Shown one piece after another: positions 22,606 to 34,108 of a stretch of 64,000 nucleotides of DNA (within the stretch, counting starts at the first letter, position 1; the number at the start of each line of letters is the position of its first letter). The notes under the pieces were generated by a model that was given only the letters and a program-made list of their open reading frames with translations, did not search any database and had not been told where the DNA came from. This DNA comes from Massilia oculi (lineage in GTDB: Bacteria > Pseudomonadota > Gammaproteobacteria > Burkholderiales > Burkholderiaceae_D): assembly GCF_003143515.1 (NCBI RefSeq), contig NZ_CP029343.1, positions 4,588,001-4,652,000 of the forward strand. Direction: 5' to 3'. Position numbers and translations under genes: made by a program.

Positions 22606-22866
22606 ATCGCCGCAAAGAGAGATGGATGGCTCGACGTAGCCAGTCTTTCCCGCAACGCTGCCATTTTAATCATTATCATTCTACAAACTGGCAAATTCAT
22701 ATCTGCTTTTTCTTTCAGTATGCCAGTCCAGACGCATCAGCCAGTGGGGCGGCGTCCTACAGGATCACTGCCGGTTTTTGGTGTTCAGCGCGCTTTCAGG
22801 TGGCTACGATGGAGTTCTTCGAGTCAGCACCGCTGACATTTTGTTCACGATGAAACGGAGTCAATC
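22606..22866. promoter_or_regulatory. Divergent promoter region between the two-component system and the KGG gene
   Basis: No gene seen. The part at 22660-22725 is AT-rich and contains a Fur-like AATCATTATC at 22668-22677. Further right, GGCTACGATGG (around 22802-22812) could be a stationary-phase-type -10 for the KGG gene; this is weak. A Shine-Dalgarno-like ACGGAGT lies just before ATG 22867. Confidence 0.35.
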
Positions 22867-23270: not shown

Positions 23271-24614
23271 CTAGTACACGTCGCGCCGATAGCGCCCGTC
23301 GCCCATCATGGCCTCGACCGTATCGAGTCCGAGCGCCGACACGAGCGCATCGTGCACGCCGCCGGCCATGCCTTGCAGGCTGCCGCAGACATAGATTGCC
23401 GCGCCATCCGCGACCCAGCGGCGCAGTTCTTCCTGGTGCACCTCCACCAGATGCTGCACGTAGCGGGCCTGGCCCCCGTCGCGAGAAAACGCCAGATCGA
23501 GCCGCGCCAGCACGCCGCCATCACGCCATGCTTCCAGTTCCTCGCGGCATAGATAGTCGTGGGCCGCATTGCGCTCGCCGAACAGCAGCCAGTTGCGCTC
23601 CGTGCCGGCATCGATGCGCGCCTTGAGCAGCGACCGCAGGCCCGCCAGGCCGCTCCCGTTGCCGATCGCGATCAGGGGCCGTCCCGCATTCTCACCCAGC
23701 CGGAAACGCGCATGGGCGCGCACGCGCAGGCGGATCGTGTCGTCCGGGTGCGCGCACGCGCACAGCCAGCCGGACGCCGCGCCCGGCGTGCCGTCCTCGC
23801 GCGTCTGCAAACGCACCAGCAGTTCGAGCCGGCCTTCGCCCGGCACCGAAGCGATCGAGTACTCGCGCGGATGGTCCGGGTCGAGCGGCGCGCTGACCTG
23901 GGCCAGGTCGCCTGCCTCCCACGCGGGCAGCAGGCCATCGCGCGGCACCAGGCCGATACGGTACAGCGGCGCGCCGGCGCTGCCGGGGTTCAGCCGGATG
24001 CGGCTGGCGATGCGCCATTCGCCGTAGGCCGGCGCTTCCCAGTCCGGCGCATCGCTGGTGCCGGCCAGGTGGCTCAGGTGGTGCTGCCAGGCGGCCAGCG
24101 CTTCGGGCGCGCCGCGGTCGACGTCGATCCGGTCGAACAGCGGCGTGGCGCCGCGCTCGCGCAGCCAGGCATCCAGCGCGCGGCCGAAGCCGCAGTAATT
24201 GGCATACGTCGCGTCCCCCAGCGCCAGCACGCCATAGTGCAGCTGCGACAGGTCGAGCGCTTCGCCCATCGTCCGGCCGGCGAAGCGCGCGCCGGTATCC
24301 GGCGCATCGCCTTCGCCATAGGTGCTGCAGATGAACAGCACGCGCGAGGCGGCGGCCAGCTGCGCGGCGTCCACGGTCGACATGCAGGCGGCGCGTGCAT
24401 CGAGGCCGCCCAGGGCCAGGGTGGCGGCGGTGCGTTCGGCCAGGAATTCGGCGCTGCCGGTCTGGCTGGCGTGGACCACGAGCCAGTCGGCCGCGCCGCC
24501 GGTGGCACTGGTGCGCGCCAGGCGGCTGCGCCAGATGCCGAGGCACATGGCGAGATAGGCGCCGGACAGCGCGAGGGCGCCGCCCCAGCGCAGGGGTTCG
24601 ATCGTCAACATCAT
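23271..24614 (-). CDS. Membrane-anchored flavodoxin/ferredoxin-reductase-type flavoprotein
   Basis: A 447-residue electron-entry protein. One N-terminal helix (WGGALALSGAYLAMCLGIW, about 10-28) anchors it. A flavodoxin domain follows with ASQTGSAEFLAERTA for FMN and CSTYGEGDAPDTG, then a FAD domain with REYSIAS and an NAD(P)H domain with IGNGSGLAGLRSLL and YVCGSLQGMAG. It resembles sulfite reductase alpha or P450 reductase with a shortened connecting domain. The start at 24614 overlaps the apbE stop by 4 nt (ATGA). As last gene of the operon it should pass NAD(P)H electrons to the PepSY membrane protein (inference). Confidence 0.85.
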   Translation of the reverse strand: MMLTIEPLRWGGALALSGAYLAMCLGIWRSRLARTSATGGAADWLVVHASQTGSAEFLAERTAATLALGGLDARAACMSTVDAAQLAAASRVLFICSTYGEGDAPDTGARFAGRTMGEALDLSQLHYGVLALGDATYANYCGFGRALDAWLRERGATPLFDRIDVDRGAPEALAAWQHHLSHLAGTSDAPDWEAPAYGEWRIASRIRLNPGSAGAPLYRIGLVPRDGLLPAWEAGDLAQVSAPLDPDHPREYSIASVPGEGRLELLVRLQTREDGTPGAASGWLCACAHPDDTIRLRVRAHARFRLGENAGRPLIAIGNGSGLAGLRSLLKARIDAGTERNWLLFGERNAAHDYLCREELEAWRDGGVLARLDLAFSRDGGQARYVQHLVEVHQEELRRWVADGAAIYVCGSLQGMAGGVHDALVSALGLDTVEAMMGDGRYRRDVY

Positions 24615-25621
24615 TGCAATAAGGCGCGCCAGGCGCCGGACGTCGTCTCGAGCAGGCCGCCCGGTGCGCGCACCAGGAAGCGCGCCGCGATGCCGCGCGC
24701 CTCGGCGAAGGCGAGGCCGTCGCCGGGACCCAGCACGGTGAGCGCGGTGGACAGGGCATCGGCCGCCATGCAGGTGGACGCCAGCACGGTCACCGAGGCG
24801 ACGCCGCCCGCAACCGGGTAGCCGCTGCGCGGATCGAGGGTGTGCGCGGCGCGCCGCGCGCCGTGTTGAAAGTAGCGGCGGTAGTCGCCCGAGGTGGCGA
24901 TCGCCAGCCCGTGCAGGGCGACCACGGCCTGGGTGGCCGAGCCGTCGGCATCCGGCACCCCTTCGATCTCCACCCACCACGGCTCGCCATTGGCCTTGGC
25001 GCCGGCGCCGCGCAGCTCGCCGCCGGCCTCGACCACGTAATGGCGCACGCTGCGCTGCTCCAGGCAGCGCGCCATGCAGTCGACCGCATAGCCCTTGGCG
25101 ACGGAAGAAAGATCGAGGAGGGCGCCGCCCGGCTGCAACAGGCGGCGCGTGGCGCGGTCGAGTACCGGTTGACTGGCGCCGCGTTGCGCCAGCGCGGCGC
25201 CGATCGCGGCCGCGTCAGGGGCGTAGAAGCCGGCCTGGTCGTAGCGCCGGGTGGCGCCGAAGCCCCACAGGTTCACCAGCTGCCCTCCGGCCGGATCGTA
25301 GGCGCCGCCGCTGTCTTCGTGCACCCGCAGCGCGTAGTCGGCGACCTCGAAGAATTGCGGCGGCAGCGCATGCCAGCTGCCAGCCGGGGCGCCGTTATAG
25401 CGCGACAGCACGGAGTCGGGCTCCCAGTGGCTCATCTGCGCGACGATCTCGTCCAACTCACGCTGCAGGGCCAGCGTCAGGGCGGCGCCGTCGGCGCCGG
25501 GCGGCAGCATCAGCCGCGCCGACCAGCTGGTGCCCATCGCGGCGCCGGCAGCCGTGTACAAGGTGCTGCCGCCGGGTGGCAACGCCATGTCGACTTCCAG
25601 CGGAACGAGAACGTCGCGCAT
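24611..25621 (-). CDS. apbE: FAD:protein FMN transferase
   Basis: Attaches FMN from FAD to a Thr or Ser in target proteins outside the cytosol. The 336-residue protein shows the family core: AMGTSWSARL at the start, LSSVAKGYAVD, HTLDPRSGYPV and the metal/flavin segment TCMAADALSTALTVLG. No classical signal peptide is obvious, though the first 25 residues are moderately hydrophobic; a second possible start lies at 25588 (residue 12). It sits between DUF4198 and the flavodoxin reductase. Its likely substrate is the DUF2271 protein two genes upstream, which has a matching D-G-V-S-G-A-T motif. Confidence 0.93.
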   Translation of the reverse strand: MRDVLVPLEVDMALPPGGSTLYTAAGAAMGTSWSARLMLPPGADGAALTLALQRELDEIVAQMSHWEPDSVLSRYNGAPAGSWHALPPQFFEVADYALRVHEDSGGAYDPAGGQLVNLWGFGATRRYDQAGFYAPDAAAIGAALAQRGASQPVLDRATRRLLQPGGALLDLSSVAKGYAVDCMARCLEQRSVRHYVVEAGGELRGAGAKANGEPWWVEIEGVPDADGSATQAVVALHGLAIATSGDYRRYFQHGARRAAHTLDPRSGYPVAGGVASVTVLASTCMAADALSTALTVLGPGDGLAFAEARGIAARFLVRAPGGLLETTSGAWRALLQ

Positions 25622-25626
25622 CGTAC

Positions 25627-26442
25627 TTATTGCGGCAGGACTTCGAGCGTGGCCGCGTAGCTGTAGCGCTTGGCGCCCGGCTGCGGTTTGCCCTCGCCGA
25701 ACGGGAAGCCGGCGCTGAGCCAGTACATATTCGCCGCCGGAACGGTGAACGAGGCTTCACCCTTGGCGTCGGTGGTCAAGCGCTGCTCGCCCGAGGAGCC
25801 GCGGTATTTGACGGTGCCCTGCACGATGCTGAACGGCAGGTTGGCGACCGGCTTGCCGTCGAGGTGGAAGCGCACGCGGATCGGCTCGCCGACGCGCAGG
25901 TCGGACGGGTTGGTCAGCGGGATCATTTCCAGGCCTTCGCCGACCGGCTTCAGGGCCGTGTCGCTGAGCTTGTTGGCCGAGACGAAGGTCTCGTTGCGCG
26001 AGTGGACGGCGGTGGTCTGCACCTCGGTGGCGCCGGCGGGGATCGCCACCGCCGGGCTGCCGGCGGCGCCGCGGAAGCGCTTGGTCTCGCTGTTCAGCTT
26101 GTAGCTGCCCGTCAGGTTATTGTTGACGATCGCCAGGCGATAGGTGCCGTCCTTCGGCAGGCGCAGGTCCAGCGTGCTGCGGTACTTGCCGACCACGGCG
26201 CCTTCGGCCCTGGCTTGCACGCCGTCCGGATCGGTGATCACCAGGTTGTCCAGGCGCAGCGGGTGGTGGTTGAACTCGAACACTTCGTTCGAGATCGCGG
26301 CATCGATCGTGACCCAGGCTTCCTTCGAATCGACCATGGCGGTGTTCGGCAGGATCCAGGCGCGGTGGGCCTGGGCCGTCATTGAGGCGCCGGCGAGCAT
26401 CAGGCCGACGATGGCGGCCTTGTAGAATGTGTTCTGTTGCAT
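25627..26442 (-). CDS. DUF4198 periplasmic protein
   Basis: A 271-residue exported protein with a signal peptide ending SMTAQA-HRAW at about residue 25. The family N terminus HRAWILPNTA places a His at the mature start, often a metal ligand in this family and in related nickel-uptake NikM/CbiK-like proteins. Two beta-rich halves follow, the second resembling a carboxypeptidase-regulatory or Ig-like fold (GEPIRVRFHLDGKPV, TTDAKGEASFTVP). It belongs to the PepSY/DUF2271/ApbE operon and is 5 nt from apbE. Role unknown; metal or siderophore handling is a reasonable guess. Confidence 0.85.
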   Translation of the reverse strand: MQQNTFYKAAIVGLMLAGASMTAQAHRAWILPNTAMVDSKEAWVTIDAAISNEVFEFNHHPLRLDNLVITDPDGVQARAEGAVVGKYRSTLDLRLPKDGTYRLAIVNNNLTGSYKLNSETKRFRGAAGSPAVAIPAGATEVQTTAVHSRNETFVSANKLSDTALKPVGEGLEMIPLTNPSDLRVGEPIRVRFHLDGKPVANLPFSIVQGTVKYRGSSGEQRLTTDAKGEASFTVPAANMYWLSAGFPFGEGKPQPGAKRYSYAATLEVLPQ

Positions 26443-26466
26443 GGGGTTCTCCTGATTGTCTTGTCG

Positions 26467-26979
26467 TTATTGGATCTGGAGCGACACGGCGCCCAGCTCT
26501 TCCTTGCCCGCCGCGTTCGCCGCCAGCTTGCCCTTGCCCGTCCAGGTGAACGGCACCTTGACCACTTCGCGTCCGCCCGCCTCGCGCGCCGCTTCCACCA
26601 CCAGCTTGTAGTCGCCGGCCGCCAGCTTGTCGATGCCGAATCTGGCGCCGCCGAACTTCATGGTGTGGGTGCCGGGCGCGCGGGTGGCGCCGCTGACGCC
26701 GTCGATCGGCAGGGTGGCGTCGCGGCCCGCCTTGCGCCACCAGGTGCGCAAGTCCTTGACCCATTTCTCGCCGCCCTTGTCCTTCATCTTGAGGTCGTAC
26801 AGCACGGCCAGGTTGGAAGCGACGTTCTGGTCGGCATTCTCGATCCAGATCGCCACATAGGGCTTGTGGTATTCGGCCACGTTCAGCTGCGGCAGGTCGA
26901 ACTTGACGGACAGGTCGGCGCCCATGGCCCAGCCGGATGCGAGCGGGAGGGTGAGGGCGAGCGAATGGGACAGTTTCAT
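26467..26979 (-). CDS. DUF2271 periplasmic protein, predicted covalently flavinylated
   Basis: A 170-residue exported protein with signal peptide about residues 1-20 (cleavage near AMG-AD). The mature part is one DUF2271 domain with YVAIWIENADQN and DLRTWWRKAGRD. Residues 93-99 read D-G-V-S-G-A-T, matching the ApbE target pattern D-x-x-(S/T)-G-A-T known from NqrC and RnfG, so T99 (codon 26683-26685) is the predicted FMN site. ApbE is coded in the same operon. The protein would shuttle electrons on the periplasmic side between the PepSY membrane protein and an unknown acceptor (inference). Confidence 0.85.
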   Translation of the reverse strand: MKLSHSLALTLPLASGWAMGADLSVKFDLPQLNVAEYHKPYVAIWIENADQNVASNLAVLYDLKMKDKGGEKWVKDLRTWWRKAGRDATLPIDGVSGATRAPGTHTMKFGGARFGIDKLAAGDYKLVVEAAREAGGREVVKVPFTWTGKGKLAANAAGKEELGAVSLQIQ

Positions 26980-27004
26980 TCTTGGTCTTCTCTCGGTTGA
27001 TGGA

Positions 27005-27676
27005 TCAGTGGACGAACAGGAGGGCCAGCACGATCGGCAGCACGATGCCGAATCCGACCACTGGCCAGGTCGACGGCCGTTTGGCCGCGTGGTACTTCAG
27101 GATCAAAAAGCCGGTAATGCAGAACACCACGCAGGCGATGGCGAAGATGTCGATGAACCAGCTCCACACCGCGCCCGTGTTGCGGCCCTTGTGCATATCG
27201 TTGAGCCACGAGATCCAGCCGCGGTCGGTCTTCTCGAATTCGGCGCTGCCGTCGACGGCGATGCGCAGCCAGGCGTCGCCGCCGGGGCGGGGCAGGGCGA
27301 CGTAGGCGTCCTCTTCGCTCCATTCGGCGCGCTTGCCGCGCACGTCGACCGGGAAGGCGGCATTGGTCCAGTCCGCGATCTCGCTCGGCAGCGGCACTTC
27401 GGCGTCGGCGTGGTCTTCGGCATAGGCCTGCAACTGGGCCCGCAGCGGCTCGGGGAGCGTCGCCTTCAGGCGCGTGACGACGGGCCTGGCCTCGATCAGG
27501 GTGGCATTGTTCAGGGTCAGTCCGGTAAAGCTGAACAGCAGCATGGCCATCAGGCAGATGGCCGAACTGATCCAATGCCACTGGTGCAGCTGCTTGAGCC
27601 ACATGGCGCGGCTGGCGCCGGGCAGGGCGCTTTCAGTCGCGGATTTGTTCTTGAGAGGAGTTGCAGTAGAAGACAT
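27005..27676 (-). CDS. PepSY-associated transmembrane protein
   Basis: First gene of the iron-regulated operon, 223 residues. It has TM1 with LHQWHWISSAICLMAMLLF (about 29-50), a periplasmic PepSY-like part (about 60-150, ending in DRGWISWLNDMHKGRNTG), TM2 (about 155-180, WSWFIDIFAIACVVFCITG) and TM3 (about 195-221). Histidines in the LHQWHW and NDMHKG segments are candidate heme ligands. PepSY membrane proteins are thought to carry electrons across the inner membrane, for example in siderophore iron reduction. ATG 27676 lies only 3 nt from a Fur box and has no Shine-Dalgarno. Confidence 0.85.
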   Translation of the reverse strand: MSSTATPLKNKSATESALPGASRAMWLKQLHQWHWISSAICLMAMLLFSFTGLTLNNATLIEARPVVTRLKATLPEPLRAQLQAYAEDHADAEVPLPSEIADWTNAAFPVDVRGKRAEWSEEDAYVALPRPGGDAWLRIAVDGSAEFEKTDRGWISWLNDMHKGRNTGAVWSWFIDIFAIACVVFCITGFLILKYHAAKRPSTWPVVGFGIVLPIVLALLFVH

Positions 27677-27679
27677 CCA

Positions 27680-27702
27680 TAAATGATAACGATTATCATT
27701 TA
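27680..27702. promoter_or_regulatory. Fur box
   Basis: A perfect inverted repeat: 10-nt arms TAAATGATAA (27680-27689) and TTATCATTTA (27693-27702) around CGA. It closely matches the Fur consensus built on GATAATGATAATCATTATC and covers the -10 of the promoter for the PepSY operon, so iron-loaded Fur should block transcription. Confidence 0.93.
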
Positions 27703-27711
27703 CATGGTCAA
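27683..27711 (-). promoter_or_regulatory. Promoter of the PepSY-DUF2271-DUF4198-apbE operon
   Basis: On the minus strand, -35 TTGACC (27711-27706) and -10 TATCAT (27688-27683) are separated by exactly 17 bp. The expected transcription start is about 27676, which is the A of the PepSY ATG, so the message may be leaderless. The -10 lies inside the Fur box. Confidence 0.7.
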
Positions 27712-27997: not shown

Positions 27998-30853
27998 ATG
28001 ATGCAACAATATAACGCCAACTCCTACCTGTTCGGCGGCAATGCCCCGTACGTGGAAGAGTTGTACGAGGCCTATCTGGACAATCCGACGGCGGTGCCCG
28101 AAAACTGGCGCGCCTACTTCGACCAGATGCAACACGTGCCGGCAGTCGACGGCTCGAACCGCCCCGACGTGGTGCACTCCTCGGTGGTGGCCTCGTTCGC
28201 GGAACGCGCCAAGCAGGGCCCGATCCGTACCGTCGTCGCTTCGGCCGACTCCGAACTGGGCCGCAAGCGCGTCGCCGTCACCCAGATCACCGCCGCCTAC
28301 CGCTACCTCGGATCGCGCTGGGCCAACCTCGACCCGCTGCAGCGCCAGGAACGCCCACCCCTCCCAGAGCTCGACCCCGCCTTCTACGGCTTCACCGAAG
28401 CCGATCTCGACACCGTTTTCAATATCAGCAACACCTATTTCGGTCAGGAAACCGCGCCGCTGCGCGACATCCTGAACATGTTGCGTGATACCTATACCCG
28501 TTCGATCGGCGCCGAGTTCATGTACATCAGCGATCCGACCGAAAAGCGCTGGCTGCAAGAGCGCCTGGAATCGATCCGCTCGACCCCGACCTTCAGCGCC
28601 GAGAAGAAGAAGCACATCCTCGAGCGCCTGACCGCGGCCGAAGGCCTGGAGCGCTACCTGCACACCAAGTACGTCGGCGCCAAGCGTTTCTCGCTGGAAG
28701 GCGGCGAATCGTTCATCGCCTCGATCGACGAAGTGATCCAGCGCGCTGGTGAAAAAGGCATCCAGGAAATCGTGATCGGCATGGCCCACCGCGGCCGCCT
28801 GAACGTGCTGGTCAACACTCTGGGCAAGAGCCCGGCTGACCTGTTCGAAGAATTCGAAGGCAAGCATGCCGACGACCTGCCGGCAGGCGACGTGAAATAC
28901 CACCAGGGCTTCTCGAGCGACATCTCGACCCCGGGCGGTCCGGTCCACCTGTCGCTGGCGTTTAATCCTTCTCACCTCGAGATCGTCAACCCGGTCGTCG
29001 AAGGCTCGGTCAAGGCGCGCATGATGCGTCGCGGCGACAAGAAGGGCAAGGAAGTGCTGCCGATCCTGGTGCACGGCGACGCTGCGTTCGCCGGCCAGGG
29101 CGTGGTCATGGAAACCCTGAACCTGGCGCAGACCCGCGGCTACGGCACCGGCGGCACCGTCCACATCGTCATCAACAACCAGATCGGCTTCACCACGTCG
29201 GATCCGCGCGACGCGCGCTCGACCCTGTACTGCTCGGACGTCGTCAAGATGATCGAAGCGCCGGTGCTGCACGTGAACGCCGACGATCCTGAAGCCGTCG
29301 TGCTGGCCAGCCAGATCGCCCTCGACTACCGCGCCGAGTTCGGCAAGGACGTCGTGGTCGACATCATCTGCTACCGCAAACTGGGCCACAACGAGCAGGA
29401 CACCCCAGCGCTGACCCAGCCGCTGATGTACAAGAAGATCGCCAAGCACCCGGGCACCCGCAAGCTGTACGCCGAGAAGCTGGCCGCGCAGGGCACGATC
29501 GAAGCCGACGGCGGCGACAAGCTGGTCGCGGCCTACCGCGACGCCATGGACGCCGGCAAGCACACGGTCGATCCGGTGCTGACCAACTTCAAGGGCAAGT
29601 ACGCCGTCGACTGGGCGCCGTTCCTGAACAAGAAGTGGACCGACGCCGCCGACACCGCCGTGCCGGTCACCGAACTGAAGCGCCTGGCCGAACGCATCAC
29701 CAAGGTCCCTGAAGGTTTCAAGCCGCACTCGCTGGTCGACAAGGTGCTGGCCGACCGCGCCGCCATGGGCCGCGGGGAGATGAACCTCGACTGGGGCATG
29801 GGCGAGCACCTGGCCTTCGCCTCGCTGCTGGCGTCGGGCTACGCGATCCGCCTGTCGGGCCAGGATGCCGGCCGCGGCACCTTCGTGCACCGCCACGCCG
29901 TGCTGCACGACCAGAACCGCGAGCGCTGGGACCAGGGCATCTACCTGCCACTGGCCAATGTCTCCGACAATCAGGCCGACTTCACCGTGATCGACTCGGT
30001 GCTGTCCGAAGAAGCAGTGCTGGGCTTCGAATACGGCTTCTCGACCGCCGAGCCGAACACCCTGACCATCTGGGAAGCCCAGTTCGGCGACTTCGTCAAC
30101 GGCGCGCAAGTCGTCATCGACCAGTTCATCGCCTCGGGCGAAGTGAAATGGGGCCGCGCCTCGGGCCTGGTCATGATGCTGCCGCACGGCTACGAAGGCC
30201 AGGGTCCGGAGCACTCGTCGGCCCGTATCGAGCGCTTCCTGCAACTGTGCGCCGACAACAATATGCAAGTGGTCCAGCCGACCACGGCTGCCCAGATCTT
30301 CCACCTGCTGCGCCGCCAGATGGTGCGCCAGTTCAGGAAGCCATTGGTGATCTTCACGCCGAAGTCGCTGCTGCGTAACAAGGACGCCGGTTCGTCGCTG
30401 ACCGACCTGACCAAGGGCGGCTTCCAGACCGTCATCGGCGAATGCGACGACAAGATCGACGCAGGCAAGGTCAAGCGCGTGATCGTGTGCTCGGGCAAGG
30501 TGTATTACGACCTGGTCAACGCACGCAAGGCACGCAGCAGCGCCGACACCGCGATCATCCGTATCGAGCAGATGTACCCGTTCCCGCACAAGTCGTTCGC
30601 CGCCGAACTCAAGAAGTTCCCGAACGCGACCGAGGTGGTGTGGGCGCAGGACGAGCCGCAGAACCAGGGTCCGTGGTTCCAGATCCAGCACAACATCTTC
30701 GAAGGCATGGAAGATGGCCAGCGCCTGGCCTACGCCGGTCGCGCCGCGTCGGCATCGCCGGCGGTGGGTTATGCGGACAAGCACATCGCACAGCAAAAAG
30801 AACTGCTGGAGACCGCGTTCTCGAAACTCAAGGGTTTCATCCTGACCAAATAA
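27998..30853 (+). CDS. odhA: 2-oxoglutarate dehydrogenase E1 component
   Basis: Thiamine-diphosphate enzyme (also named sucA) that decarboxylates 2-oxoglutarate and passes the succinyl group to the E2 lipoyl arm. The 951-residue product starts with the E2-binding type N terminus (SYLFGGNAPYVEELYEAYLDNP). It has the GMAHRGRLNVLVN motif, the HGDAAFAGQGVVMET thiamine-binding segment with FNPSHLEI, YGTGGTVHIVINNQIGFTT, and the C-terminal half with LPHGYEGQGPEHSS. Shine-Dalgarno AAAGG sits 9 nt before the ATG and can be masked by leader structure. First gene of the odh block. Confidence 0.97.
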   Translation: MMQQYNANSYLFGGNAPYVEELYEAYLDNPTAVPENWRAYFDQMQHVPAVDGSNRPDVVHSSVVASFAERAKQGPIRTVVASADSELGRKRVAVTQITAAYRYLGSRWANLDPLQRQERPPLPELDPAFYGFTEADLDTVFNISNTYFGQETAPLRDILNMLRDTYTRSIGAEFMYISDPTEKRWLQERLESIRSTPTFSAEKKKHILERLTAAEGLERYLHTKYVGAKRFSLEGGESFIASIDEVIQRAGEKGIQEIVIGMAHRGRLNVLVNTLGKSPADLFEEFEGKHADDLPAGDVKYHQGFSSDISTPGGPVHLSLAFNPSHLEIVNPVVEGSVKARMMRRGDKKGKEVLPILVHGDAAFAGQGVVMETLNLAQTRGYGTGGTVHIVINNQIGFTTSDPRDARSTLYCSDVVKMIEAPVLHVNADDPEAVVLASQIALDYRAEFGKDVVVDIICYRKLGHNEQDTPALTQPLMYKKIAKHPGTRKLYAEKLAAQGTIEADGGDKLVAAYRDAMDAGKHTVDPVLTNFKGKYAVDWAPFLNKKWTDAADTAVPVTELKRLAERITKVPEGFKPHSLVDKVLADRAAMGRGEMNLDWGMGEHLAFASLLASGYAIRLSGQDAGRGTFVHRHAVLHDQNRERWDQGIYLPLANVSDNQADFTVIDSVLSEEAVLGFEYGFSTAEPNTLTIWEAQFGDFVNGAQVVIDQFIASGEVKWGRASGLVMMLPHGYEGQGPEHSSARIERFLQLCADNNMQVVQPTTAAQIFHLLRRQMVRQFRKPLVIFTPKSLLRNKDAGSSLTDLTKGGFQTVIGECDDKIDAGKVKRVIVCSGKVYYDLVNARKARSSADTAIIRIEQMYPFPHKSFAAELKKFPNATEVVWAQDEPQNQGPWFQIQHNIFEGMEDGQRLAYAGRAASASPAVGYADKHIAQQKELLETAFSKLKGFILTK

Positions 30854-30897
30854 ACCGTTGGGGCCGAACATTGCACGTTCGGCTCCTGACCAAATAA
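30841..30897 (+). repeat. 13-bp direct repeat flanking a hairpin at the odhA 3' end
   Basis: CCTGACCAAATAA occurs at 30841-30853 (last codons and stop of odhA) and again at 30885-30897. The 31 bp between contain a hairpin GCCGAAC/GTTCGGC (30863-30869 with 30877-30883). A second small hairpin CCCGCG/CGCGGG follows at 30922-30940. The gap to odhB is 123 bp. Confidence 0.85.
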
Positions 30898-30976
30898 TGG
30901 CCGGGTAAGTAAAACCACGCTCCCGCGTCTCGTGCGCGGGGGTACTTGCAAAGAATAATCACTGGAGTTTTAAAAA

Positions 30977-32242
30977 ATGGCACAAATCGAAGTCAAGGTA
31001 CCTGTTCTGTCGGAATCCGTTGCTGAAGCAACCCTGCTGTCGTGGCACAAGAAAGTCGGCGAATCCGTGTCGCGCGACGAAAACATGATCGACATCGAGA
31101 CCGACAAGGTGGTCCTGGAACTGCCAGCGCCAAGCGCCGGCGTGATCGTGCAACTGCTGAAAGCCGACGGCGATACCGTCGTCGCGGGCGAAGTCATCGC
31201 AATCATCGATACCGAAGCATCGGCGCAGACCAGCCCGATCGCCGTCAAGGCCGTCCCATCGGCAGCGCCGAACGCATCGATCTCGGCCGCGCCTGCAGCC
31301 GCCCCGGCTGCAGACCAGTCGAAGGCCGGCGTCGCCATGCCGGCCGCCGCCAAGATCCTGGCCGACAACAATATGAGCGCGTCGAACGTCGAAGGCTCGG
31401 GCCGCGACGGCCGCGTGACCAAGGGCGACGCCCTGGCCGCCGTCGGCAACAAGCCGGCCGGCGCTGCGCCAGCCGCCGCGCCTGCTGCGCCGAAGGCCGC
31501 GCTGCAACAAGTCGCTGCTCCTGCACCGGCCAACCTGGGCGACCGCCCTGAAGAGCGCGTGCCGATGAGCCGCCTGCGCGCCCGTATCGCCGAGCGCCTG
31601 CTGCAATCGCAATCGACCAACGCCATCCTGACCACCTTCAACGAAGTGAACATGGCTCCGGTCATGGAGCTGCGTAACAAGTACAAGGACAAGTTCGAGA
31701 AAGAACACGGCGTCAAGCTGGGCTTCATGTCCTTCTTCGTCAAGGCCGCCGTTGCCGCGCTGAAGAAATACCCGATCCTGAACGCCTCGGTCGACGGCAA
31801 CGACATCATCTACCACGGCTACTTCGACATCGGCATCGCCGTCGGTTCGCCACGTGGCCTGGTGGTGCCGATCCTGCGCAACGCCGACCAGATGTCGATC
31901 GCCGAAATCGAGAAGAAGATCGGTGAGTTCGGCCAGAAAGCCAAGGATGGCAAGCTGACCCTGGACGACCTGTCGGGCGGTACCTTCTCGATCTCGAACG
32001 GCGGCGTGTTCGGCTCGATGCTGTCGACCCCGATCATCAACCCACCGCAGTCGGCGATCCTGGGCGTGCACGCGACCAAGGACCGCGCCGTCGTCGAGAA
32101 CGGCCAGATCGTCATCCGTCCGATGAACTACCTGGCGATGTCGTACGACCACCGCATCATCGACGGCCGCGAAGCCGTGCTGGGCCTGGTCGCGATGAAG
32201 GACGCGCTGGAAGATCCGGCCCGCCTGCTGCTGGACCTGTAA
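30977..32242 (+). CDS. odhB: Dihydrolipoyllysine succinyltransferase, E2 of 2-oxoglutarate dehydrogenase
   Basis: Core enzyme (also named sucB) that transfers the succinyl group from its lipoyl arm to CoA. The 421-residue protein has one lipoyl domain (residues about 1-78) with the lipoylated lysine in [13 protein letters not shown], an Ala/Pro-rich hinge, a peripheral-subunit-binding domain ([28 protein letters not shown], in pieces about 115-150), a second hinge and the catalytic domain ending with [13 protein letters not shown], which holds the catalytic His and Asp. Length is normal. Confidence 0.97.
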
Positions 32243-32254
32243 TTCTCGTCACGT

Positions 32255-32280
32255 GCCGGCGCCGTCATGACGGCGCCGGC
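32255..32280. terminator. Perfect 26-bp palindrome after odhB
   Basis: A 13-nt arm GCCGGCGCCGTCA is followed directly by its complement, giving an 11-bp GC-rich stem with a 4-nt loop. It is followed by TTGCTGTTT, not a clean T run, so it may only reduce read-through into the PspC-like gene and lpdA. Confidence 0.5.
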
Positions 32281-32302
32281 TTGCTGTTTGCCGGAGAACG
32301 CC

Positions 32303-32656
32303 ATGTTGTCAGACGAAATCAAGCGGCTGCACGAGCTGCACCAGGCCGGCGCGCTGTCGGATGCCGAGTTCGAGCAGGCCAAGGCGCGCATCCTGTCGGG
32401 TGCGTCGACCGTCAGCCTCAGCAAGGAACCGCCAACCACCGAGCGGATTTCCTTCGACCAGCACCGCGACGACCTGTTGAGCGGCCTGCGCCGTTCGCGG
32501 CTCGACCGCTGGCTGGGCGGCGTGTGCGGCGGCCTGGCGCGCACCTACGGTCTCGAATCGTGGGTCTGGCGCCTGATCTTCGTGCTGTTCGTCCTGACGT
32601 TCGGCTTCGGCATCCTGATATACCTGCTGCTGTGGGTATTCATTCCGGAAGAATAA
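32303..32656 (+). CDS. SHOCT and PspC domain protein
   Basis: A 117-residue protein placed between odhB and lpdA. Residues about 1-33 form a SHOCT-type helical pair (IKRLHELHQAGALSDAEFE), and about 68-117 a PspC domain: RWLGGVCGGLARTYGLESW followed by a single transmembrane segment and an ending LLLWVFIPEE. PspC proteins sense or respond to membrane stress; here the soluble part is N-terminal. ATG 32303 is chosen because GGAG lies at 32293-32296; the longer open frame runs into the palindrome. Why it is inside the odh block is unknown. Confidence 0.85.
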   Translation: MLSDEIKRLHELHQAGALSDAEFEQAKARILSGASTVSLSKEPPTTERISFDQHRDDLLSGLRRSRLDRWLGGVCGGLARTYGLESWVWRLIFVLFVLTFGFGILIYLLLWVFIPEE

Positions 32657-32671
32657 AAAGGAATCAAAGTA

Positions 32672-34108
32672 ATGAGCGATAAACAATTTGACGTCGTCGT
32701 GATCGGCGGCGGTCCTGGCGGCTACATCGCCGCCATCCGCGCTGCCCAGCTGGGCTTCAAGACCGCCTGCATCGACGAGTGGAGCAACGCCGCCGGCAAG
32801 CCTGCCCCGGGCGGCACCTGCACCAACGTCGGCTGCATCCCGTCGAAAGCGCTGCTGCAATCGTCGGAGCACTTCGAGCACGCCGGCCACGCCTTCGCCG
32901 ACCACGGCATCAAGGTGTCGGGCCTGGAACTCGACCTGGGCACCATGCTCAAGCGCAAGGACACCATCGTCAAGCAGAACAACGACGGCATCCTGTTCCT
33001 GTTCAAGAAGAACAAGGTCACCTTCTTCCACGGCCGCGGCGCCTTCGCCGGCAAGCTCGAGGCCGATGCGGGCTACACCATCAACGTTTCGGGCCCGACC
33101 ACCGATACCATCACCGCGAAAAACGTGGTGGTGGCGACCGGTTCGAACGCACGCCAGCTGCCAGGCGCTGAATTCGACGAGAAGCTGATCCTGTCGAACA
33201 CCGGCGCACTGGCGATCGACGCCGTGCCGGGCAAGCTCGGCGTGATCGGCGCCGGCGTCATCGGCCTGGAAATGGGCAGCGTGTGGCGCCGTGTCGGCGC
33301 CGACGTCACGGTGCTGGAAGGCCTGCCGACCTTCCTGGGCGCGGTCGACGAGCAGATCGCCAAGGAAGCCCACAAGCTGTTCACCAAGCAGGGCCTGAAG
33401 ATCAACCTGGGCTGCAAGATCGGCGCGATCACCAAGGGCGCCAACGACGTCACCGTCGAATACGCCGATTCGACCGGCGCGGAACAGAAAGCGACTTTCG
33501 ACCGCCTGATCATCTCGATCGGCCGCGTGCCGAACACCAACGGCCTCGGCATCGAGACCGTCGGCCTGCAGTTGGATGAGCGCGGCTTCGTGGTGGTCGA
33601 CGACGAATGCCGCACCAGCCTGCCTGGCGTGTGGGCGGTGGGCGACGTCGTGCGCGGCCCGATGCTGGCGCACAAGGCCGAGGAAGAAGGCGTGGCGGTT
33701 GCCGAGCGCATCGCCGGCCAGCACGGCCACGTGAACTTCAACACCATCCCCTGGGTCATCTACACCTCGCCAGAGATTGCATGGGTCGGCAAGACCGAAC
33801 AGCAGCTGAAGGCAGAAGGCGTGCAGTACAAGGCCGGCACCTTCCCGTTCATGGCCAACGGCCGTGCGCGCGCGCTGGGCGACACCTCGGGCATGGTCAA
33901 GTTCCTGGCCGATGCCACGACCGATGAAATCCTGGGCGTGCACATCGTCGGTCCGATGGCGTCCGAGCTGATCTCGGAAGCCGTGGTCGCGATGGAGTTC
34001 AAGGCCTCGTCGGAAGACATCGCCCGCATCTGCCACGCGCACCCGTCGCTGTCGGAAGCGACCAAGGAAGCCGCGCTGGCGGTGGACAAGCGTTCGCTTA
34101 ATTTTTAA
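32672..34108 (+). CDS. lpdA: Dihydrolipoyl dehydrogenase
   Basis: E3 enzyme that reoxidises the dihydrolipoyl arm of E2, passing electrons through FAD to NAD. The 478-residue protein shows the FAD motif [17 protein letters not shown], the redox disulfide in [16 protein letters not shown], the NAD motif [13 protein letters not shown], an ATP-like [19 protein letters not shown] segment and the dimer-interface [15 protein letters not shown] with the catalytic histidine. It is 15 nt after the PspC-like gene. Last member of the odh block; a REP-like element follows. Confidence 0.97.

Follow-up and report, generated by a model that had tools for sequence, protein, structure and literature searches.

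Introduction

PepSY-like flavinylation clusters, in which a PF16357/PF03929 membrane protein accompanies DUF2271, DUF4198 and the flavin mononucleotide (FMN) transferase ApbE, were described in eLife in 2021 (PMC8238504; this and the other papers are cited here from parts of their text). That study identified DUF2271, with its conserved [S/T]GA[S/T] motif, as an ApbE substrate; the Amantichitinum ursilacus protein was flavinylated and lost this modification on a Thr-to-Ala exchange, and in Escherichia coli ApbE acted on DUF2271 with both signals removed. PepSY-like clusters with DUF2271 (2833) and with DUF4198 (1500) were listed, together with links to iron, and iron reduction was proposed. 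Here we analyse a five-gene operon of the same families in a 64,000-nucleotide stretch of Massilia oculi DNA (contig NZ_CP029343.1, positions 4,588,001 to 4,652,000; hereafter the window). We propose, with a probability of roughly 0.75, that it specifies a transmembrane electron-transfer module of the PepSY-like class, repressed by Fur and serving ferric reduction, in which DUF4198 would bind metal and DUF2271 would be flavinylated before its export. The compartment of flavinylation is the new point that this sequence analysis would add.

The locus CC_3059-3063 of Caulobacter crescentus (CCNA_03155-03159) resembles the operon in Fur control and in carrying the same families in numerical order. 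Its genes, printed as 'Transporter', DUF2271, DUF4198, ApbE and sulfite-reductase flavoprotein, are strongly induced under iron limitation and on loss of fur, and Fur binding was seen in an electrophoretic mobility shift assay (PMC3751524). CCNA_03155-03159 has been called a PepSY-like system and shows fitness defects with ethylenediaminetetraacetic acid (PMC12004947). The annotations differ from ours, as the Caulobacter ApbE is printed as an Fe-S assembly/repair protein (PMC3751524, PMC12004947) and CC_3059 as 'Transporter', in a locus said to contain a PepSY-family protein. In Alteromonas, the iron-responsive MASE_17435 and MASE_18630, near TonB receptors, have a C-terminal DUF2271 fused to pfam16357 and COG1477, respectively, which are separate genes in the window (PMC7190382). 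Further comparable proteins are FoxB of Pseudomonas aeruginosa (7ABW; PMC11334425), which shares the PepSY-type membrane protein with conserved His, and the Ni-binding DUF4198 protein of Ideonella sakaiensis (9GCB; PMC12537917), found in nickel-related neighbourhoods for which the cited parts of the paper mention neither ApbE, PepSY nor DUF2271. An earlier note on this DNA had as its central prediction that ApbE flavinylates DUF2271; this is already established for relatives, and most of the idea is published.

Results

A further PepSY-like flavinylation operon

The five genes and the presumed flavin site are as follows.

27005..27676, minus strand: PepSY_TM_like_2 membrane protein (PF16357, 6.5e-78, 261.7 bits; PF03929, 43.9 bits)
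26467..26979, minus strand: DUF2271 protein, presumed ApbE substrate, with a Sec-like N-terminus (PF10029, 1e-48)
26683..26703, minus strand: DGVSGAT, DUF2271 residues 93-99, with Thr99 the presumed FMN site
25627..26442, minus strand: DUF4198 protein, probable periplasmic metal binder (PF10670, 6.3e-51)
24611..25621, minus strand: apbE, flavin adenine dinucleotide (FAD):protein FMN transferase without an export signal (PF02424, 1.2e-76)
23271..24614, minus strand: flavodoxin-FAD/NADP (nicotinamide adenine dinucleotide phosphate) reductase, CysJ-like, 447 residues (PF00258, 2.7e-25, and PF00175, 8.5e-9)

All five open reading frames were found on the same strand, at the positions given by the earlier note. 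Its description of several genes as overlapping or within a few bases applies to the last three, with 5 bases between DUF4198 and apbE and a 4-base overlap of the reductase start with the apbE stop; it does not apply to the two gaps before them, of 25 and 24 bases. A PF16357/PF03929 protein adjoins PF10029 and PF02424 proteins here, as in PepSY-like flavinylation clusters, and the operon is a further case of that published class. The host genome (5.84 Mb, a single contig, listed as 100% complete) encodes one DUF2271, 96% identical to its Massilia arenae counterpart, and two ApbEs. FMN_bind, NqrB/RnfD and DUF3570 gave no match in this genome, where DUF2271 is thus the sole representative found of the four substrate families.

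To compare the locus we used genomes sampled from the phylum, order and class, in which DUF2271 scored above the family cut-off in 43/299, 28/250 and 6/229, respectively; the class sample gave no new full-length protein. With 12 named loci this made 78 loci, and with the window 79 DUF2271 sequences, a count that leaves aside matches below about 20-25 bits (L099 and L100 among them) and a contig-end fragment above the cut-off (G333). The motif D93-G-V-S-G-A-T99 stands exactly where the earlier note had read it, and the five operon proteins contain no other stretch of the form D-x-x-[ST]-[GAS]-[AP]-[ST]. The acceptor Thr/Ser is kept in 79/79 sequences, the Asp that precedes it by six residues in 71/79, and the strict [ST]GA[ST] motif, which the window protein has as SGAT99, in 49/79. 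The motif is therefore wider in our sample, as [ST]-x-[AP]-[ST], than in the published description (PMC8238504). The earlier note had staked its prediction on conservation of the motif beside apbE; [ST]-x-[AP]-[ST] is present in all 52 DUF2271 proteins encoded beside a separate apbE, 40 of which have the strict form. That DUF2271 is the ApbE target is well supported, a homologue having been flavinylated in the laboratory (PMC8238504). The window protein begins MKLSHSLALTLPLASGWAMGA-D, which by eye is Sec-like and has no twin arginine; its peak hydropathy is only 1.29.

The operon ApbE lacks an export signal

The window ApbE matches PDB entry 5mgy at 1.1e-57, and its His260, Asp288, Thr292, Lys176 and Ser244, which we take to be catalytic or metal-binding residues, are invariant in 58/58 aligned rows (window counted twice). 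The apbE frame begins MRDVLVPLEVDMALPPGGSTLYTAAGAAMGT, 5 bases past the DUF4198 stop; the N-terminus so encoded is polar and includes proline, and no in-frame ATG, GTG or TTG lies upstream of this start. The protein is not of the periplasmic lipoprotein type, as no hydrophobic stretch follows any in-frame start.

Most separate ApbEs encoded beside DUF2271 share this absence. We scored a protein as signal-like if any in-frame start was followed by an uncharged 12-residue stretch with a mean hydropathy of at least 1.7. Only 7/57 operon ApbEs were flagged, namely five ApbE-DUF2271 fusions (L088 and L116-L119), L112 and the doubtful L086, so that 50/52 separate operon ApbEs were unflagged. By contrast, stand-alone ApbEs were flagged in 20/20 cases from genomes that lack an apbE adjacent to DUF2271 and in 19/20 from genomes without DUF2271 (Fisher 2e-22, kinship ignored). 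The first set comprised 20 of the 24 ApbE matches in 17 genomes, each genome being represented; the second was mostly of top-scoring proteins rather than a random draw. A tree built from 97 ApbEs gathers the 52 from operons into a single group, whose support of 93/85 falls slightly short of the 95/80 at which the tool awards its star; the fusions make up a group of their own (100/100). The fusions (L088, L116, L117, L118, L119) combine a signal-like stretch with Pro at motif position 6.

An ApbE is encoded in each of the 43 phylum-sample genomes with DUF2271, versus 183/256 of those without it (hypergeometric probability 2e-6), and the adjacent separate apbE is the sole ApbE match in 19 of the 27 phylum-sample genomes having one; both counts were compiled by hand from search tables. 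Where apbE is not adjacent to DUF2271, an ApbE is encoded elsewhere in 17/17 genomes, a check that covers the samples and not the named loci L007, L008, L009 and L012, which also have no adjacent apbE. The second ApbE of the host genome (L015), considered as an alternative enzyme for DUF2271, also starts without a signal (MFHHTMGAMNTRF...) and scores only 73 bits; its short length kept it out of the tree. Close by are genes for a Gfo/Idh-type oxidoreductase and a DUF1080-like protein, identified by eye.

These observations bear on whether DUF2271 receives its flavin in the periplasm, the usual place, with the operon ApbE getting there by an unrecognised route or with a partner. Such a course would fit the enzymes known so far, since ApbE is typically membrane-anchored and periplasmic, the cytosolic ones known serving a cytosolic target (PMC12052999), and it would fit the 20/20 signal-like ApbEs that accompany DUF2271 operons without apbE. 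We consider it unlikely for operons such as that of the window, given the 50/52 separate ApbEs in which no start yields an uncharged hydrophobic stretch, the polar N-terminus so close behind the DUF4198 stop, and the 19/27 genomes without any other ApbE match.

The acceptor motif differs with ApbE type

Among DUF2271 proteins without an adjacent apbE, 20/22 have [ST]-x-[AP]-[ST] and 9/22 the strict motif; in the fusions these counts are 5/5 and 0/5. Position 5 of the motif is Gly in 48/52 proteins with a private ApbE, versus 11 Gly, 9 Ser and 2 Ala among the 22 without an adjacent one. At position 6, Pro occurs in 10/52 with a private ApbE and in 5/5 fusions, and in 0/22 without an adjacent ApbE, where Ala is found in 22/22. 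The variation with ApbE kind at positions 5 and 6 gave p = 1e-4 and 0.03, uncorrected for kinship. Covariation of this sort is what a dedicated enzyme-substrate pair would be expected to produce, and shared descent might yield it as well.

We also considered whether DUF2271 export signals are weaker, and export thus slower, where ApbE is private, and rejected this: the mean peak hydropathy was 1.87 (n=52) versus 1.98 (n=21, a set that excludes L097 and the five fusions; p = 0.35). In a sister class of loci (L089-L096, L098 and L120-L123) the acceptor motif ends in GAS; a leaderless apbE lies nearby in 11/13 of them, and none within 5 kb in L094 and L095.

A predicted electron path across the membrane

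The reductase resembles CysJ (1.8e-42 to PDB 6efv), and in this alignment both have the RxYS and SRD stretches, whose roles are presumably in FAD and NADPH binding. Its N-terminus has one hydrophobic stretch followed by Arg residues, for which reason the reductase domains should face the cytosol, as the predicted point of electron input. In the four sister-class loci scanned (L089, L093, L098 and L121; 4/4) the PepSY_TM, flavodoxin and NAD-binding domains are joined in one protein, whose gene sits between DUF2271 and apbE. This fusion suggests that reductase and PepSY protein work together and lends support to the path from one to the other that the earlier note had drawn.

A model of the PepSY protein (predicted local distance difference test score 92.2) places three long helices at the membrane, namely 19-56, 168-197 and 203-221; residues 57-163, which separate the first from the second, form a mixed domain. 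All 64 aligned rows, among which the window appears twice, have both His34 and His162, and 47/64 have His196; His223 is present in the 52/52 rows that reach it, the relatives L073, L087, L111 and L117 ending without it. Histidines close to either face of the membrane would be compatible with a pair of hemes.

A Fur box, and a probable metal-binding partner

Two features precede the PepSY gene.

27684..27703, no strand assigned: Fur box, near-palindrome TGATAACGATTATCA plus flank, supported by consensus matches and by enrichment upstream of PepSY homologues
27683..27711, minus strand: sigma-70-like promoter TTGACC-17-TATCAT, overlapping the Fur box (10/12 positions, consensus match only)

The 19-base Fur consensus has a single match, with 3 mismatches, at 27685-27703 (0.00 expected), and TGATAATNATTATCA was matched with one mismatch at 27684-27698. 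Upstream of PepSY genes, Fur-like sites (at least 14/19) occur at 24/63 loci, versus 14/630 random windows from the same loci; 10 of these 24 come from the window or from its relatives in the genus Massilia and hence are not independent. The predicted Fur box at the promoter and the upstream enrichment support membership of the operon in the Fur regulon, as the earlier note had claimed. The best promoter match ends very near the PepSY start codon (27676-27683), which would make the mRNA nearly leaderless; the true start may differ.

In DUF4198 a signal peptide ending in AxA is followed by His26, which would be the N-terminal residue of the mature protein; this His is present in the 61/61 rows that reach the column, 4/65 rows falling short of it (window counted twice). 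The fold of the DUF4198 model matches Zcp (PDB 9MHI-9MHN, known to us by their titles) and the Ni-bound 9GCB, with the alignment starting at residue 26 of the model and residue 1 of the chain; sequence profiles from DUF4198 did not reach 9GCB. His59 is present in 47/51 rows with a residue there and may not be equivalent to His18 of 9GCB. On the basis of these matches to metal-bound structures, DUF4198 is a probable periplasmic metal-binding protein, in keeping with the earlier guess that it handles the metal.

The module might reduce or handle a metal other than iron, such as copper, nickel or zinc complexes, with DUF4198 as the metal-specific part: the nearest solved structures of this fold have bound Ni (9GCB; PMC12537917) or, in Zcp, Cu, Zn and Co, and the PepSY_TM protein CrpH has been tied to copper (PMC13038864). 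Against this stand the Fur box at the window and at homologous operons, Fur binding and the iron response in Caulobacter (PMC3751524) and the iron associations of the class (PMC8238504), and we regard a non-iron role as improbable, somewhat more so than periplasmic flavinylation.

Flanking genes

The divergent neighbours of the operon are 2-oxoglutarate dehydrogenase genes (27998-34108). On its other side, 22605-20450 (minus strand) encodes a histidine kinase together with a response regulator that has a Trans_reg_C domain. A weaker Fur-like site at 22664-22678, with 2 mismatches to TGATAATNATTATCA, precedes these genes by some 60 bases. Between this two-component pair and the flavin operon is the gene of a small KGG-motif protein (PF10685; 22867-23211, plus strand).

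Discussion

The module that we propose would work as follows. Under iron scarcity, NADPH would reduce the membrane-tethered flavodoxin-type reductase on the cytosolic side, electrons would pass the inner membrane by way of the PepSY protein, probably via heme, and would reach the FMN held covalently on Thr99 of the periplasmic DUF2271. This FMN may then reduce a ferric complex, to which Fur control and the Caulobacter fitness phenotype point, with DUF4198 binding the metal, or a metal-ligand complex, through its mature N-terminal His. Because the private ApbE has no export signal, it most likely attaches FMN to DUF2271 in the cytosol, before export.

Several points, besides the usual periplasmic place of ApbE, weigh against parts of this proposal. 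The DUF2271 export signal of the window is weak by our crude hydropathy measure: at the 1.7 threshold 38/52 DUF2271 proteins beside apbE pass, and the window protein, among the lowest, does not. The operon ApbE of L112 carries a lipoprotein-like signal, and the expression 'signal peptide-truncated cognate apbE' in PMC8238504 suggests a signal on the A. ursilacus enzyme, WP_053936888.1. Since the 52 operon ApbEs form one tree group, loss of the signal may be a single event, not 50, kept over wide divergence. As for the electron path, FoxB is absent from the PepSY fold matches listed, and the three long membrane helices predicted for PepSY are a point of difference from it. His is frequent in six columns, just two of which, His34 and His162, show it in every row of both alignments. 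DUF4198, finally, has no histidine at the ungapped offset of His18, the second Ni ligand of 9GCB.

That the leaderless ApbE modifies a cytosolic protein, DUF2271 functioning without covalent flavin, has a precedent in the leaderless ApbE of Klebsiella pneumoniae, whose target, a soluble fumarate reductase, stays in the cytosol (PMC12052999), and is very improbable here, where the presumed target looks exported, the acceptor residue is kept in 79/79 DUF2271 proteins, the motif varies with ApbE kind (kinship uncorrected) and occurs in no other protein of the operon, and truncated forms co-expressed in E. coli flavinylated DUF2271 (PMC8238504).

The earlier note had missed that this ApbE is leaderless, and the compartment of flavinylation may differ from the usual one. 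In open-licence PMC text we found no passage stating that DUF2271-linked ApbEs lack export signals; the passages of PMC8238504, as text and not figures, do not discuss an ApbE without such a signal, and Figure 4C of that paper may show it. Returning to cytosolic flavinylation, we consider a broader scheme to be evenly balanced between true and false. A dedicated lineage of leaderless ApbEs would flavinylate an exported carrier while it is still in the cytosol, and FMN would cross the membrane on the protein by Sec-type export; where the operon has no apbE, a periplasmic, lipoprotein-like ApbE would act on the same carrier family from the opposite side. The acceptor motif would have shifted along with this, Gly being nearly fixed and Pro allowed with a private enzyme, and Gly, Ser or Ala being found with a strict Ala without one. 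If this is true, covalently bound flavin on a chain is no bar to its passage through the export route.

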